Assembly (NCBI GenBank): GCA_017521605.1
Contig: JAFXCD010000114.1
Location: forward strand, 1-33,267
Source of the DNA: Lachnospiraceae bacterium
GTDB taxonomy: Bacteria > Bacillota > Clostridia > Lachnospirales > Lachnospiraceae
Length of the DNA: 33,267 nt
Direction: 5' to 3'
In this document: positions 1,103 to 9,619 of the stretch, one piece after another
Numbering within the stretch: the first letter of the stretch is position 1
Layout of the letters: the number at the start of each line of letters is the position of its first letter
Made by a program: the position numbers and the translations under genes
The notes under the pieces: generated by a model
Database searches by the model: none
What the model saw: only the letters and a program-made list of their open reading frames with translations
What the model was told of the DNA's origin: nothing

Positions 1103-1282
1103 TTAGAAGATGTAAAAACCTTCTTCACCGGCTTCGCCAAAATCAAAGTCTTCTTCGTTTAAGAAGTAATCCATATCCAGAAGGTCGTTAGCGCTCATAG
1201 TACGGATTTCCGCAGCGGTCATGCCTTCGGGTGGATTCTGGATGTATTTTTGTCGTAGTTTCTCTGTGTTTTGTTTGTTCAT
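1103..1282 (-). CDS. 59-residue acidic protein coupled to the transposase
   Basis: This small ORF reads MNKQNTEKLRQKY, then a region ending in MSANDLLDMDYFLNEED and an acidic tail ending GFYIF. Its ATG overlaps the transposase stop codon as ATGA, and a CGGAGG ribosome binding site lies inside the last transposase codons. It is therefore probably translated by coupling to the transposase, and a minus-strand terminator follows it. The first 20 residues are basic and the last 25 strongly acidic, with no cysteines or membrane segment. I recognise the pattern of a small passenger ORF accompanying clostridial transposases but know no function. It could regulate or assist the transposase, which is inference only. 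Confidence 0.75.
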   Translation of the reverse strand: MNKQNTEKLRQKYIQNPPEGMTAAEIRTMSANDLLDMDYFLNEEDFDFGEAGEEGFYIF

Positions 1283-2490
1283 GATGTATACCTCCGCTTT
1301 AAAGATAGTTTACTACAGTCGGAGGGATTTTTACAAGATGCAGATGGTGGGCGACAGCTGCGGTGTTTTGCCATTGTCCTTTCGTATAATTCATCCAGAG
1401 AAACACGATGACGTTTGAAGTAAAGTTCCAGAAAACGCATAACTGAGGAACATTTGGGACATTTCAGCGGGTCATAGCCGAAGGAGGAAAGCAGACAATT
1501 GCGCCAACGGTTGAAGGACAGAAGAATCCTATGCTTTTCCAAAGGAATAACCCGGCGGAGTTTTTTATCAGAGCTACGGTGGCGTGCATAGATGCCGTAA
1601 TACCGAATCATTTTGAAGTTTGTTTCGGGGATGTGCCTGATAAGTCTTTCTATGAAATCCAGTGCGGGAATGGTCTCATAAACAAGTTGATCGTCCTCAT
1701 GCCTGTTGTAGTGGAAGGTGACCGAGTCGCCGTCATATTTATCAATGCGAGAAGTAGCAATCACTGGGCGTCCCAGGTATCTGCCGATGTATTTGGTGAC
1801 AATGGAGGGATCGCAGAGATTAGGTTTTGCGTAGACATAAAACCCGTTCTTCTGATTCCGGTAAACAGAGGCTTTGACTTTTTTGAAGGAATCACCAATC
1901 CGGGGATGCATTTCATTAAGAAGAGCGGTCTGAAAAGAAGTTCGAAGAAGTTTGTAGTTGAAGCGTTTAAAAGGACGCCAACGCCCAGAATTACCAATGC
2001 CGCCTTCTGAAATGAGGTAGTGGATATGAGGATTCCATTTAAGGTCGCGTCCGAAAGTATGCAGGACACAGATGAAGCCGGGAGTAAAACATTCAGATTT
2101 GTTTTTCGATTGGAACATTCTGAGGACGACGCTACGGACAGCAGAGAAAAGGCAATTAAGTAGTGTTCTGTCAGTAAGGAAAAAAGGCCGTAATTCTTCA
2201 GCAATGGTAAAAACGCAGTGTCTGTGAGGGACATCAATGAGTTTGAAGGACATAGAAGTGGTTCTGTCAATGGAGTATTTGACACCGCAGGTAGGACAGA
2301 ACCGGCTGTGGCATCGGAAAGGTACAAATTTAAGCGTGCCACAGGAAGGACATCCGTACATGGCACCACCAAAGGACGGATCCCCACAATGAATCATTTT
2401 TTCAACATTCTCGACAACAGCCTGTCGGGGATGAAGAATATAAATCATTTCTTCATAATGGTCTGTAAAAATGTTTTGTAGTATGTTCAT
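1279..2490 (-). CDS. IS91-family HUH (Y2-like) transposase
   Basis: The 403-residue protein has an N-terminal zinc-binding domain with cysteines at C47, C50, C60, C65 and C68, as in the IS91 zinc-binding transposase domain. The HUH metal-binding motif is H155-I-H157 within WNPHIHYL. Two tyrosines four residues apart, Y234 and Y238 (KYIGRYLGRP), fit the paired nucleophiles of Y2 HUH enzymes. A C-terminal CPKC (344-347) may bind another metal. Such enzymes nick one strand and move DNA by a rolling-circle route, usually without target duplication. The frame is intact. No strong ribosome binding site precedes the ATG, which suggests weak expression. The gene opposes its neighbours and lies just past the tpiA terminator. 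Confidence 0.9.
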   Translation of the reverse strand: MNILQNIFTDHYEEMIYILHPRQAVVENVEKMIHCGDPSFGGAMYGCPSCGTLKFVPFRCHSRFCPTCGVKYSIDRTTSMSFKLIDVPHRHCVFTIAEELRPFFLTDRTLLNCLFSAVRSVVLRMFQSKNKSECFTPGFICVLHTFGRDLKWNPHIHYLISEGGIGNSGRWRPFKRFNYKLLRTSFQTALLNEMHPRIGDSFKKVKASVYRNQKNGFYVYAKPNLCDPSIVTKYIGRYLGRPVIATSRIDKYDGDSVTFHYNRHEDDQLVYETIPALDFIERLIRHIPETNFKMIRYYGIYARHRSSDKKLRRVIPLEKHRILLSFNRWRNCLLSSFGYDPLKCPKCSSVMRFLELYFKRHRVSLDELYERTMAKHRSCRPPSASCKNPSDCSKLSLKRRYTS

Positions 2491-2714: not shown

Positions 2715-3758
2715 ATGGATATGAATATTGGAAGTGTGATAAAAAGATTACGTATTGCTCAGTCAGTAACCCAGGAGGATTTGGCAGAGTATCTGGGGAT
2801 ATCCTATCAGGCAGTCAGCAAGTGGGAAACGGGAGTAGGATTGCCGGATATTACATTACTGCCCAGGATAGCAGTTTTCTTCGGAGTGCGGATTGATGAG
2901 TTATTTTCCATCAGTCATGAGGATGAAATGGAACGAATCAGACATATTCTGGATTATGAAAAAATGAATGATGGGAATTTTGCCTATGCTAAGCGCACCT
3001 TGGATACTATGCTGAGCGAGAACTCGAAAAATGTGGATGCTATAAAAACATATGCTAAGGTGATTCTGACTAAGTCTAATGAGGAGCTGCTTTCAGCAGG
3101 TAAAATGCTGGAAAAGGCCATGGAAACCAGTCCTTTGGATGATGAAATCTACAACCTTTATCGTGCAGTACGTGGGGGCGGTGAATACAAATACCATAGC
3201 GATAATGATTGGTTTATCAGAGTTTGTGAGCCTTATGCAAGGAAGTATCCCCAAAAAGAAGGCTTATGCAATCATCTGGTAGAAGCCATGATCAGCCAGC
3301 AGTATTTTGATAAGGCAGAAGAAATCATCTGTATGATGCAGCCTTCTGCAGAGCAGGCATTCATGAAGGAGATTTTGCTGGGAGATGTACAGGTAAAGAG
3401 AGGAAATACCAAAGCTGCTAAGAAAATCTGGGAAACTGTTTCTGAGGAGGATTGGCGTGCTCAGTATGAGGTGGGCGAACGATTAAATCGTTTAAATGAA
3501 TATGAAGATGCCATTGCTTGCTTTAAGAGAGCTTTTGACTTACAGAAAGCACCTAAGCGAGCTTTGGATATGGTTTATTCATTAGCTTTCCTGTATAAAA
3601 AACTGGGACGATTTGAAGAAGCTGTTAAGGCCTGGGAATGTATTCTACAGGTGCTTAAAGAGGATTACGGACTGGCAGAAGGCAATGATGTGGAATGGGC
3701 AAAACGAGAGCTTTTGCAGTTAAAGGAACTGATTGACAAGGATTATAATTTGATATAA
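2715..3758 (+). CDS. XRE-family helix-turn-helix regulator with C-terminal TPR-like repeats
   Basis: This 347-residue cytosolic protein begins with an XRE/Cro-type helix-turn-helix (about residues 8-62: IKRLRIAQSVTQEDLAEYLG, then ISYQAVSKWETGVGLPDI). The rest is all-helical and fits TPR-like repeats, with pairs such as LNRLNEYEDAIACFKRAFDL and LYKKLGRFEEAVKAWECILQ at about residues 257-310. HTH-plus-TPR proteins often sense a peptide or partner protein through the repeats, as RRNPP-type and related clostridial regulators do, but no peptide gene is seen here. The start has AAAGGAG eleven bases upstream. The promoter of the next gene overlaps its 3' end, so this could be a linked regulator; that is inference. 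Confidence 0.88.
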   Translation: MDMNIGSVIKRLRIAQSVTQEDLAEYLGISYQAVSKWETGVGLPDITLLPRIAVFFGVRIDELFSISHEDEMERIRHILDYEKMNDGNFAYAKRTLDTMLSENSKNVDAIKTYAKVILTKSNEELLSAGKMLEKAMETSPLDDEIYNLYRAVRGGGEYKYHSDNDWFIRVCEPYARKYPQKEGLCNHLVEAMISQQYFDKAEEIICMMQPSAEQAFMKEILLGDVQVKRGNTKAAKKIWETVSEEDWRAQYEVGERLNRLNEYEDAIACFKRAFDLQKAPKRALDMVYSLAFLYKKLGRFEEAVKAWECILQVLKEDYGLAEGNDVEWAKRELLQLKELIDKDYNLI

Positions 3759-3761
3759 AAT
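3733..3761 (+). promoter_or_regulatory. Strong sigma-A promoter for the riboswitch leader
   Basis: TTGACA (3733-3738), a 17-base spacer and TAAAAT (3756-3761) make a near-perfect promoter whose -10 overlaps the stop codon of the upstream gene. Transcription would begin near 3768, about 15 bases before the aptamer. Confidence 0.8.
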
Positions 3762-3780
3762 TTTCTTGAGAATTACGAAT

Positions 3781-3864
3781 AGTGTTGACAAACTGATAGA
3801 AATGTAAGGGCGCAAAGTCGGAAGTCTACAGTGTGAATAAGATACTTAGATGGTTCGGTTGCAA
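3781..3864 (+). promoter_or_regulatory. Cyclic-di-GMP-I (GEMM-I) riboswitch aptamer
   Basis: The leader carries the family landmarks in order: CAAAC (3789-3793); a short helix capped by a GAAA tetraloop (3799-3802, arms CTGATA/TGTAAG with one mismatch); GGCGCAAAGTC (3809-3819, family GACGCAAAGCC); TCTA (3825-3828) paired with TAGA (3847-3850); and TGGTTCGGTTGC (3851-3862, family TGGCxGGGTTGCC). The closing helix pairs TTG(A)CAA at 3785-3791 with TTGCAA at 3859-3864, with one bulged A. Several positions deviate from consensus, so this is a divergent member. The 3' strand of the closing helix is shared with the terminator that follows, predicting that ligand prevents termination (an ON switch). 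The identification is by eye. Confidence 0.75.
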
Positions 3865-3888
3865 AGAAGTTTCTTTGCAACCTTTTTT
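3857..3888 (+). terminator. Riboswitch-controlled terminator
   Basis: GGTTGCAAAGAA pairs perfectly with TTCTTTGCAACC and is followed by six T residues. Its left arm contains the 3' strand of the aptamer closing helix, so the two structures exclude each other. Confidence 0.9.
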
Positions 3889-3951
3889 GTGTATTGAGAA
3901 TTGCGTGATAGGATTTTATTAAATGGTGAAACAATTAGAAAGGGGAAACAA

Positions 3952-5115
3952 ATGGGACTGTTTTTTGAAAATATACACATTCATAAAAGTCTGGAATACA
4001 GTGTAGAGGTTTTGAAAAAAGAACTTGTCAGATATTTTGAAGAGAACGGGTTTAAATTGGCCGCAGAAGGCGAAGAGGGAAATGCTTCTGTGGTAATTTA
4101 TGAGCCGAATGGTAGCGAGTGGATATCAGTTGCTTCTGATATTTTTCAATTTAATACGGAAGAGGATATACGAAAAGTGGCCGAACCTCTTTCGAAATGC
4201 TTTGAAACAGAAGTTTTAACAGCCGGATGTTATGATTCTGACTATTTGCGTTTGAGCCTGTTAAAGGTCTTGGATGGGACGGATGCTTGGATTAATGTAG
4301 GTAGAGCGGAAGGAATGAAGCAATTTCGACGTACAAGCTTGACACCTTGGAAAAAGATTGTGGCGGATTTAGATATATTAAAGAATATTGTGAAAGCAGA
4401 ATATGTTTTTTCGGAGGAAGCTTTTTATAAAATCGCAGACTTGATACAGATGATGCCGGAGCAGGTTGCACTTGAGGTGGAAACTATGGATGCGTTGAAT
4501 GTAGAGGAAATGACTACCTTGAGATTTTTAGCACCGGAGGGAGCTTTAAATCTACCTGAATTTGAGATACCAAGATACAATGGAATGCCTTGTAAGATAG
4601 GGGAATCCCAGGTTGTCTCTGTATATAATAAAGGCGGTAAGTCTAAAGGATTTGGAATCATGTTTATTGGTGATTATGTAGAGAATGATGAAATCACCTT
4701 CGAAGATGTAAAGCTACAGCTAATGACAAAGGAAGGCTGGCAGTTTGTACCAATTGAACTAAAGAAGGTTAATTGGACACAGGGGAAGAAATGTTACTAT
4801 TGGAGTGATGCAGAGTTCCAACTTCCGCCGGCAGTGAGCGAAGCGATTCCGCTCATGAAAAGAATGAATATGGAATTTGAAAGAGAAATAGGGATTCGGT
4901 TTACACCAGTTGGAAATCCTAGAAAGGTTTTAGATATTAGACTTGTGATATATCCTTTGGCTAATAGTAGGGAGGGTCAGACGTCATGGTATGTTTATCG
5001 ATACGATGGCAGTAAAAGAAAGTATATTGAGCAGTACAATAGACGAAGAACAGATATGCATATAGGTTCTACCCCAATAGATTTGCTAAACCCGGAAGAT
5101 TATGATTTGGATTAA
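3952..5115 (+). CDS. Uncharacterised 387-residue protein under riboswitch control
   Basis: I do not recognise a named family. The protein is soluble, with no signal peptide or membrane segment. It begins MGLFFENIHIHKSLEYSVEV, and the early part (EPNGSEWISVASDIFQFNTEED, then CYDSDYLRL) looks like a compact alpha/beta domain. The C-terminal half contains a segment with IGESQVVSVYNKGGKSKGFGIMF split over residues about 213-240, and ends in a positively charged region and an acidic tail. I chose ATG 3952 because AAAGGGG lies eight bases upstream; a TTG at 3901 lacks one. It is the first gene after the riboswitch terminator. The next gene follows after 97 bases. A cytosolic defence or immunity-type role is possible from its neighbours but unsupported by motifs. 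Confidence 0.85.
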   Translation: MGLFFENIHIHKSLEYSVEVLKKELVRYFEENGFKLAAEGEEGNASVVIYEPNGSEWISVASDIFQFNTEEDIRKVAEPLSKCFETEVLTAGCYDSDYLRLSLLKVLDGTDAWINVGRAEGMKQFRRTSLTPWKKIVADLDILKNIVKAEYVFSEEAFYKIADLIQMMPEQVALEVETMDALNVEEMTTLRFLAPEGALNLPEFEIPRYNGMPCKIGESQVVSVYNKGGKSKGFGIMFIGDYVENDEITFEDVKLQLMTKEGWQFVPIELKKVNWTQGKKCYYWSDAEFQLPPAVSEAIPLMKRMNMEFEREIGIRFTPVGNPRKVLDIRLVIYPLANSREGQTSWYVYRYDGSKRKYIEQYNRRRTDMHIGSTPIDLLNPEDYDLD

Positions 5116-7176: not shown

Positions 7177-7220
7177 AAAGTATCAAAGTGTTTTTATGGG
7201 GGAGAAAGGAGATAAACGCG

Positions 7221-8207
7221 ATGATTTTTAAATGTAAAAACTGTGGCGGTAATGCTGTATACAGTCCGGAACATAATGGTATGTTCTGCCCTTATTGTGA
7301 TAGCGAAAAGAGTCATGAACGTATGCATGATTTATATAATATTCAGGTGTGCCCTGATTGCTCAGGTGAATTGCAAATAGAAGAGCATACCTCTGCTATG
7401 CAGTGTCCTTATTGCAATAACTATATTATTTTGAATGAGCGTGTGGAGGGACAGTATGCACCTAAGAAGATGATACCTTTTAAGTATAGTAAAGACATGG
7501 TGAAAAAGCTTATGAGAGATAATTTCAAAGGTCGTGTTTTTGCTCCTACGGACTTTTTGTCTGAAGCCAGATTAAATGGTATGAGTGGTGAATATGTACC
7601 TTTCTGGATGTATGACTATGATACACGATGTGTATTTCGTGGAGAGGGTACCAAGACCAGAAGCTGGACCAGTGGTGATATGCGATATACGGAAACCTCC
7701 TATTATAATATTGTCAGAGATTTAAATGTAACCTATAAGGATATTCCTGTTGATGCTTCCATTATAATGCCTGATCAGATTATGGATTTGATGGAGCCCT
7801 ATAATTATGATGATTTGGTAGAGTTTACACCGGAATATATGTCAGGTTTCCATGGTGAAAAGTACAATATGGATGCTACAAGCATTGAAAATCGAGCCAA
7901 TTCCAAGATGCGTAGCAGTGCGGAAACCTTGTTGAATCAAAGTGTAACAGGGTATTCCAGGGTGACGCCTATCGATAAGAAGATTATGCCCAGAATGACG
8001 GAAGCCACATTCTGCTTACTGCCTGTATGGAAATACATATACAAATATAAGGATACGGAATATCCCTTCTATATTAATGGACAGACCGGAAAGGTTATCG
8101 GTAAGGTGCCGGTATCTAAATCTAAGATTTGGGCTTATGGAGCTACTTTGTGGGCTTCTCTGGCAGGCGTTATATTGTTGGCCGGATATATTATTTCAAG
8201 CTTATAA
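7221..8207 (+). CDS. Double zinc-ribbon protein with a C-terminal membrane anchor
   Basis: The 328-residue protein has two N-terminal zinc ribbons: C5/C8 with C23/C26, and C44/C47 with C62/C65, of the TFIIB/zinc-ribbon type common in clostridia. A long soluble middle follows (VPFWMYDYDTRCVFRGEGTK, an aromatic beta-rich stretch). One hydrophobic segment (IWAYGATLWASLAGVILLAG, about residues 303-323) ends the protein. The topology is therefore probably tail-anchored with the ribbons in the cytoplasm. ATG 7221 has AAAGGAG nine bases upstream and is preferred to GTG 7188. The TPM-domain gene starts 18 bases downstream, so the two probably work together at the membrane. Function unknown; the zinc ribbons may hold proteins or nucleic acid. 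Confidence 0.85.
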   Translation: MIFKCKNCGGNAVYSPEHNGMFCPYCDSEKSHERMHDLYNIQVCPDCSGELQIEEHTSAMQCPYCNNYIILNERVEGQYAPKKMIPFKYSKDMVKKLMRDNFKGRVFAPTDFLSEARLNGMSGEYVPFWMYDYDTRCVFRGEGTKTRSWTSGDMRYTETSYYNIVRDLNVTYKDIPVDASIIMPDQIMDLMEPYNYDDLVEFTPEYMSGFHGEKYNMDATSIENRANSKMRSSAETLLNQSVTGYSRVTPIDKKIMPRMTEATFCLLPVWKYIYKYKDTEYPFYINGQTGKVIGKVPVSKSKIWAYGATLWASLAGVILLAGYIISSL

Positions 8208-8225
8208 AAGGGGAGGAAACTGGAA

Positions 8226-9170
8226 ATGTCACAGGATTATGATGTTAAGGCAGAAGCCAGAAAACAATATTTAAGATATTTTAAAGGGTGGTTTATATTG
8301 TTGGGACTCCTGACAGTGATTTGTGGCGTAATGTTTGGCGGCAGATTACTCAAGGGACAAGTGGCCCGTACCAATGATGAAGCGCCGGATGAAAGAGTTT
8401 ATGACCACGCAGATGTGTTATCAGACAGTGAAGAGGAGAAATTAAGTAAGCTTATTGAAAAGGCACAAGCTGAAATTCAGGCAGATATTGTATTGGTAAC
8501 TATAGATCAAGCAGTGGAAGGCAGTGAAGCCCAAAAAGAATATGGATATCATTCTGACGATTGGGAACAGAATATGGTGGATTTAGCGGATGATTTTTAT
8601 GCTAAAAACATGTTTGGTTATGATGAGGATGAATATAGTGGCCTGTTGTTATTGGTGAACTGGTATTCAGACAGTGATGGAAGCCAGCGGGGTGCACATT
8701 TAGCTACCTTCGGTAGTGCACGCGAGCGTCTTGGAGACAGAGAGAATGATCAGATAATCGATGGAGCAATGGACGTGCTTGTAGCCGGAGGTTCACACTA
8801 TAAGGCCTATAAGACATATGTAGACAAAGCTGTTGATTTTATGGACGTTAGGCTGCACTTGGCGCCTATGTGGATTTTTGTGGTAGCAGCATTGATAATA
8901 CCGGCCATTGTAGCACTAATTTTTGTGACAAGTAAAGCTATCGGTAGCCAGGGTAAGGTTACGACCAGCGTGAATACTTATGTGAGCGAGAATTCCCGTA
9001 ATAATACTATGGATGATAGTTTTATAAGAAAGAGTGTAACCAGTACACGTATTTCTACCAGTAGCAGTTCCGGTGGTGGTGGCACAAGAAGTGGCGGTGG
9101 TGGTGGCGGTGGCCGCTCCTATGTAAGTAGTAGCGGACGCACACATGGTGGCGCTAGTCGAAGGATTTAA
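8226..9170 (+). CDS. TPM-domain (YgcG-type) membrane protein
   Basis: This 314-residue protein has a first membrane segment at residues 21-39. An extracytoplasmic TPM domain follows at about 57-205 (RVYDHADVLSDSEEEKLSKL; DIVLVTIDQ; YSGLLLLVNW). A second membrane segment lies at 215-236, and the tail is Ser/Gly-rich (SSSGGGGTRSGGGGGGGRS, about 280-298). TPM domains occur in the YgcG family, the PSII repair protein TLP18.3 and acid-phosphatase-like proteins; several are linked to membrane-protein upkeep. The Gly/Ser tail is typical of the YgcG type. The start is supported by AGGGGAGG 8-15 bases before ATG. It lies between a zinc-ribbon membrane protein and a TM2 protein, a frequent grouping in Firmicutes whose exact role is not known. 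Confidence 0.9.
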   Translation: MSQDYDVKAEARKQYLRYFKGWFILLGLLTVICGVMFGGRLLKGQVARTNDEAPDERVYDHADVLSDSEEEKLSKLIEKAQAEIQADIVLVTIDQAVEGSEAQKEYGYHSDDWEQNMVDLADDFYAKNMFGYDEDEYSGLLLLVNWYSDSDGSQRGAHLATFGSARERLGDRENDQIIDGAMDVLVAGGSHYKAYKTYVDKAVDFMDVRLHLAPMWIFVVAALIIPAIVALIFVTSKAIGSQGKVTTSVNTYVSENSRNNTMDDSFIRKSVTSTRISTSSSSGGGGTRSGGGGGGGRSYVSSSGRTHGGASRRI

Positions 9171-9220
9171 AATACAATGATGTTAGAAATTATAATCAAA
9201 AGATAAGAGGAGTGGATGTT

Positions 9221-9619
9221 ATGGAAAATATAACAGGTACAACTGAGATAATTGAATTGCAAGAGAGAATGAAGTTTTGTAAACATTGTGGAAGAAAGAT
9301 TCCGGAGGCAGCTGTAATATGTGTATTGTGTGGTTGCCAAGTAGAAGAATTAAAGCAAATAGAGCAGCCTAATATAATTATTAATAACGCAAATACTAAT
9401 ACTAATACAAATAATCTAATGTATGGCGGACGAATGAAAGATAAGTGGGTTGCATTTTTCCTTTGTGTATTGTTTGGTTATTTCGGTGCACACAAATTTT
9501 ACGAAGGTCGTATTGGAACAGGGGTATTGTATCTATTTACAGTTGGTCTATTTGGTATAGGCTGGATTATAGATTGTATTAGTTTGTTGTTAAAACCTAA
9601 TCCTTATTATGTTAGATGA
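9221..9619 (+). CDS. Zinc-ribbon TM2-domain membrane protein
   Basis: The 132-residue protein starts with a zinc ribbon (FCKHCGRKIPEAAVICVLCG, two CxxC pairs), passes through an Asn/Thr linker (NNANTNTNTNN), and ends in a TM2 domain. That domain has two hydrophobic segments around a short loop (WVAFFLCVLFGYFGAHKFYE, then VLYLFTVGLFGIGWIIDCIS). The G-x-x-G-x-H-x-F-Y signature of TM2 proteins is clear (GYFGAHKFYEGR). ATG 9221 has AGAGGAG 8-14 bases upstream; GTG 9212 lies within that site and is rejected. It is the last gene before a shared terminator and is probably transcribed with the two genes before it. TM2 proteins are widespread and their molecular role is not settled. Confidence 0.9.
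   Translation: MENITGTTEIIELQERMKFCKHCGRKIPEAAVICVLCGCQVEELKQIEQPNIIINNANTNTNTNNLMYGGRMKDKWVAFFLCVLFGYFGAHKFYEGRIGTGVLYLFTVGLFGIGWIIDCISLLLKPNPYYVR

Follow-up and report, generated by a model that had tools for sequence, protein, structure and literature searches.

A c-di-GMP-I riboswitch homologue with ON-type geometry and a probably eroding aptamer in a Lachnospiraceae genome

The window analysed here, a stretch of 33,267 nucleotides from a Lachnospiraceae bacterium, carries a riboswitch-like element between an XRE/TPR gene and an open reading frame for a 387-aa protein (3952-5115, forward strand). A promoter-like site, TTGACA-17-TAAAAT (3733-3761, forward strand), overlaps the end of the upstream gene and is followed by a homologue of the c-di-GMP-I aptamer (3777-3866) and an intrinsic terminator (3857-3888). 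The promoter was described as near-perfect in the initial annotation; the site does match the consensus at 11 of 12 positions, but this is not proof, as the scan of 701 bases returned one site with at least nine matches where shuffled sequences gave 1.4. Upstream of the XRE/TPR gene, a 403-aa open reading frame (1279-2490, reverse strand) resembles an IS91-type transposase by eye. Further downstream (7188-9619, forward strand), genes with zinc-ribbon, TPM and TM2 domains follow one another.

The Rfam covariance search assigned 3777-3866 of the forward strand to RF01051 (c-di-GMP-I). The score is 46.1 bits, the gathering score being 35, and E is 4.1e-6 for the whole window and 3.2e-8 for 261 bases; no other Rfam family passed its cut-off anywhere in the window, whichever strand was read. 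The search had been proposed in the initial annotation together with the fear of a low score; the score is significant, though it is indeed the lowest of the three copies in this genome (58.2, 57.7 and 46.1 bits). All the landmarks that had been read from the sequence were located on the forward strand between 3789 and 3862, namely CAAAC (3789-3793), the GAAA loop (3799-3802), GCAAAG (3812-3817), TCTA (3825-3828), TAGA (3847-3850) and GGTTGC (3857-3862). The differences from the core consensus pointed out earlier, GGCGCAAAGTC, do not all weigh the same: the G that replaces A at 3810 recurs in three of 18 sister elements, the T that replaces C at 3818 in none of them. RF01786, the other family suggested for checking, was absent among the matches listed for 3700-3960 (E up to 10), a list from which two weaker matches of the RF01051 clan were dropped; the two other RNA families on it were both far under their cut-offs. 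RF03167 (c-di-GMP-I-GGC), which belongs to the same clan as RF01051, scored only 30.7 on the window against a cut-off of 59 when run separately.

The window shares with RF01051 the P2/P3 layout, the CAAAC motif, a GNRA loop, the GCAAA motif and the GC of the junction, and differs from it in a weak P2, an A/C mismatch at the base of P2 and a P1 that was not found. The Rfam alignment shows C3862 and G3787 retained, together with the motifs CAAAC and GCAAA, as a working sensor would need. The identity first proposed, a c-di-GMP-I riboswitch, is thus backed by the family score, by 18 sisters sharing its 3' motif and by the 20 GGDEF-domain matches of this assembly. Completeness of the assembly is 92.87% and contamination 5.99%, so that some of these 20 matches may lie on foreign contigs. 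The three riboswitch copies and the GGDEF-domain matches make it likely that c-di-GMP signalling is present in this genome.

The terminator consists of an 11-bp stem (3857-3882) and a run of six T (3883-3888) on the forward strand, and is as strong as had been claimed: shuffled sequences gave 0.4 such sites, the 45-base stretch starting at 3857 folds with -16.4 kcal/mol, and the pair probabilities in a transcript to 3888 are 0.87-1.0. Its left arm (3857-3867) runs into the aptamer. P3 (3816-3860, forward strand) has as inner helix ends the pairing of 3816-3819 with 3857-3860 and that of 3821-3823 with 3854-3856; all its pairs are standard, and its last strand (3854-3860) is followed by the junction bases G3861-C3862. 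By analogy with known structures, we take C3862 to be the base that pairs with the ligand. A base to compare is C75 of the cGAMP switch (PMC6274999). The bases common to both structures are therefore 3857-3862, that is, 3857-3860 of P3 and both junction bases, including the cytosine presumed to face the ligand. Because the terminator reuses the last P3 strand, the junction and this cytosine, aptamer and terminator are mutually exclusive, as first proposed, and no separate antiterminator was seen. A ligand-bound aptamer would hold the P3/junction strand, block the hairpin and let RNA polymerase read into the 387-aa gene; read-through on ligand binding is what this arrangement suggests.

One detail of the initial reading has to be corrected. 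TTGCAA (3859-3864) had been taken for a strand of the closing helix; it is the end of P3 (to 3860), followed by the junction G3861-C3862 and then by partnerless bases. P1 itself has 0 bp in the canonical register of the window, the longest helix nearby being 3 bp, and among the 19 elements of the clade described below the same register offers 4-6 bp in four and 0-2 bp in 15. The absence of P1 is ambiguous as evidence, since by analogy it cuts both ways: binding was lost when P1 was lost in Vc2, whereas Cd1 of Clostridium difficile retained binding with a P1 undetected by NMR, as PMC9262584 reports.

The element could in principle be merely the terminator of the upstream XRE/TPR gene, resembling an aptamer by chance, and the start of the hairpin about 100 bases past the stop of that gene would suit this. 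The E value of 3.2e-8 and a sister in another genome of the genus (G008:C4), 74% identical over 102 bases and laid out in the same way, make such a coincidence scarcely credible. A plain terminator as the sole account is refuted by the family match and the sisters.

Across 101 genomes of the genus we found 54 RF01051 matches in 26 genomes, 52 of them above cut-off; these counts are lower bounds, as stricter filters were used and at most 38 candidates were scored per genome. All 54 were extracted for comparison of their layout. In a strict scan 16 had a terminator that began while 10 or 11 bases of the aptamer match were still to come, 14 had one downstream of the match, and for 24 none was found. 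The 3' motif TTCGGYYGCA occurs in 19 elements from nine genomes, namely the 16 of the strict scan and three with a bulge or mismatch beyond its rules, and each of the 19 folds into a hairpin starting at the GG of the motif. The ON geometry with competing folds thus holds throughout this set, and the overlapping ON layout is a clade trait within the genus. A DNA search for the element in 138 genomes of the genus recovered, besides the window, only G008 and one further copy in the same genome (71-90% identity).

This copy (C121, 43161-43258, 58.2 bits) is a better-preserved sister with the same layout; it reaches 52.3 bits with RF03167, below the cut-off of 59, and cmscan keeps it under the RF03167 name. 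In the third copy (C50, 11979-12054, 57.7 bits) the terminator lies 22 bases beyond the aptamer match, so that both designs occur in one genome; this copy is presumably an OFF switch. The first gene was considered after 10 of the 18 other members of the clade: it encodes a CBM_2 domain in four cases, an RHS repeat in two, an FHA domain in two and DUF6273 in one, with nothing in one. The first gene after C121 was tested by domain scan, and an FHA gene follows a same-layout riboswitch in another genome (G070:C19). By eye, the operon at C121 (L056, 310-7258, reverse strand) comprises FHA, zinc-ribbon, DnaJ, von Willebrand-type and protein-kinase genes. The window adds to c-di-GMP-I a genus-level ON group whose terminator consumes the P3/junction strand, several members of which precede carbohydrate-binding (CBM_2), RHS-repeat and FHA-domain proteins. 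A literature search on c-di-GMP riboswitches and adhesins of Roseburia and Lachnospiraceae returned nothing relevant among the matches listed; we do not claim that the clade is unpublished.

ON control by read-through of a c-di-GMP-I terminator is already established, and the window is another example of a known switch type. The Bc2 RNA of Bacillus thuringiensis is a c-di-GMP-I ON switch before an adhesin gene, demonstrated by termination assays (PMC4933901). The likeness to it lies in the proposed logic, in which the terminator is lost on binding and the ligand permits read-through; Bc2 has been assayed and precedes an adhesin, whereas the window is known from its sequence and precedes a gene with no domain match. 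The pilM GEMM-I switch of Geobacter metallireducens, also of the ON type, senses cGAMP and forms P1 on binding according to PMC9262584. The window resembles it in the mutual exclusion of aptamer and terminator with no separate antiterminator fold, and differs in keeping the G expected for c-di-GMP and in showing no P1.

Membership of the c-di-GMP-I family and the ON geometry are far more certain than the present state of the sensor. The P2 hairpin (3793-3808, forward strand), CTGATA-GAAA-TGTAAG with a G3795/A3806 mismatch, has a folding energy of +1.8 kcal/mol and is the least stable of 52 aptamers. Its first pair in the Rfam alignment is an A3788/C3813 mismatch; the combination GA at places 20-21, with the A as the first base of P2, occurs in only two of the 52. 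In the second of these, G034, P2 is the weakest but one, no other score above cut-off is lower, and the scan found no terminator. Some traits of the window are common among relatives and alone are no sign of decay: fewer than six P2 pairs are found in 11 of 52, so that a lone mismatch is not rare, J1/2, poor in adenines here, has one or none in 11 of 52, and a P1 of 0-2 bp prevails in the clade.

The cost of forcing the standard P2 and P3 pairs, relative to the free minimum-energy fold, was calculated for the 19 clade members. It is 7.0 kcal/mol for the window (8.4 with nine leader bases) and 0-4.5 kcal/mol for the 18 sisters (0-4.7 with the leader). Mean P2/P3 pair probabilities, from which the non-standard pairs of each member were left out, are 0.11 in the window (0.04 with the leader) against 0.54-0.95 in the sisters (0.43-0.94). 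In transcripts ending at 3862-3888, 3770-3775 are predicted to pair with 3851-3856 around another hairpin, leaving the terminator arm free, and the aptamer is absent from the minimum-energy folds. P2 and the pairs 3816-3860, 3817-3859 and 3821-3823/3854-3856 stay below 0.05 probability at every tested length; the outer P3 pairs 3818-3858 and 3819-3857 rise to 0.31-0.87 when the transcript ends at 3862-3876. Taken at face value, 7-8.4 kcal/mol would correspond by hand calculation at 37 °C to an apparent affinity about 10^5- to 10^6-fold weaker; we accept the direction of this estimate and not its size, as fold energies omit the tertiary contacts and the ligand, which can rescue weak helices.

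We conclude that the element is a genuine ON-type c-di-GMP-I member, descended within a local clade of ON design, but that its aptamer is probably eroding and that it now acts, in all likelihood, mainly as a weakly responsive or constitutive attenuator. The sensor half would be the eroded part, with its P2 mismatch, the A/C at the base of P2, the adenine-poor J1/2 and the P1 that was not found, while the terminator is intact. This reading draws on P2 being the least stable of 52, on the cost of the aptamer fold, on nascent folds from which the aptamer is missing, and on the rare A at the first place of P2, shared only with G034. Attenuation would then most likely be largely constitutive at present, any response to c-di-GMP being weak and confined to high concentrations. 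The expectation that this copy still switches well is accordingly the part of the initial reading from which we depart, since the half with P2 and the junction is degraded and the nascent transcript is predicted to fold otherwise than into the aptamer.

Several facts count against erosion. The score is well above cut-off with the key motifs kept, two outer P3 pairs form with appreciable probability, and orthologues for a neutrality test are absent. Outside P2 and J1/2, in a leave-one-out comparison over the 19 members, the window departs from invariant bases at two of 24 places and the others at none or one of 22-23, a small difference taken alone; a tally at position 46 was set aside as partly an artefact, since its pattern can also pick up the P2 loop. 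A c-di-GMP ON riboswitch in full working order, as first proposed, in which tertiary contacts and ligand steady the weak P2 and the alternative nascent folds are immaterial, is possible, if rather doubtful. The conserved motifs in a match above cut-off, the GGDEF-domain matches, the intact promoter-like site and terminator, the same-layout sister in the genome and the binding of Cd1 with no detectable P1 (PMC9262584) would all fit it; the outlying P2 stability and fold cost, the A/C at the base of P2 and the loss of binding with P1 in Vc2 (PMC9262584) would not.

The changes at the junction and the base of P2 cluster beside the ligand site, which allows speculation about an altered ligand, another dinucleotide or a different molecule, the more so as PMC6274999 describes a change of ligand by a single base in the GEMM-I family (the cGAMP type). 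G3787, the last base of J1/2 next to A3788, the first of P2 (3787-3788, forward strand), occupies the G/A place that separates c-di-GMP from cGAMP types. From the alignment and the order of the parts in PMC6274999, it probably corresponds to G20 of Vc2; PMC8835794 did not help to fix the base numbering. The hallmark of the cGAMP type, A in place of this G, is absent from the window, which argues for c-di-GMP over cGAMP as far as sequence can tell. The presumed ligand contacts, G3787 of J1/2 and C3862 of J1/3 (junction G-C at 3861-3862, forward strand, also within the terminator stem), are both kept according to the alignment. Given the unchanged specificity base, the damage to P2, which a new ligand would not require, and a single sequence with no conserved set, we consider an altered ligand highly improbable. 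It is also unlikely, to a slightly lesser degree, that the element answers to another ligand, or only above a much raised activation threshold, and that one genome thereby runs a single ON design with two set points; the sensitive copy would then lie before the FHA operon at C121 and the insensitive one in the window. If, as we prefer, the aptamer is eroding, the locus offers a concrete case of a family-positive riboswitch that may no longer sense, where a score above cut-off indicates homology and not function.

AG at the specificity place, with the base of the cGAMP type, was found in 13 of the 52 genus aptamers. Three c-di-GMP-I aptamers stand in tandem in two other genomes (G065:C81, 3278-3590, L010 and L031; G019:C86, 6478-6790, L009 and L032), the first with GG and the second and third with AG at this place; a triple tandem c-di-GMP riboswitch of Bacillus has already been published (PMC4759541).

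The 387-aa protein had no Pfam or NCBIfam match and a single match among PDB sequences, at E 0.08 only. It was found in one of 138 genomes of the genus and four of 392 of the order, its own genome included in both, and has a 75% identical homologue in an uncultured Lachnospiraceae MAG. The stretches that hold the homologues (L062-L065) gave no RF01051 match at E up to 1; L062 starts 108 bases before the gene and is too short to test, and in the three testable cases, L063-L065, the gene thus occurs unaccompanied by the switch. The gene listing around a 47% homologue (L066) indicated no clear function. Near the 75% identical homologue (L062, 3632-4971, forward strand), two genes resemble an AbiEi/AbiEii pair by eye.
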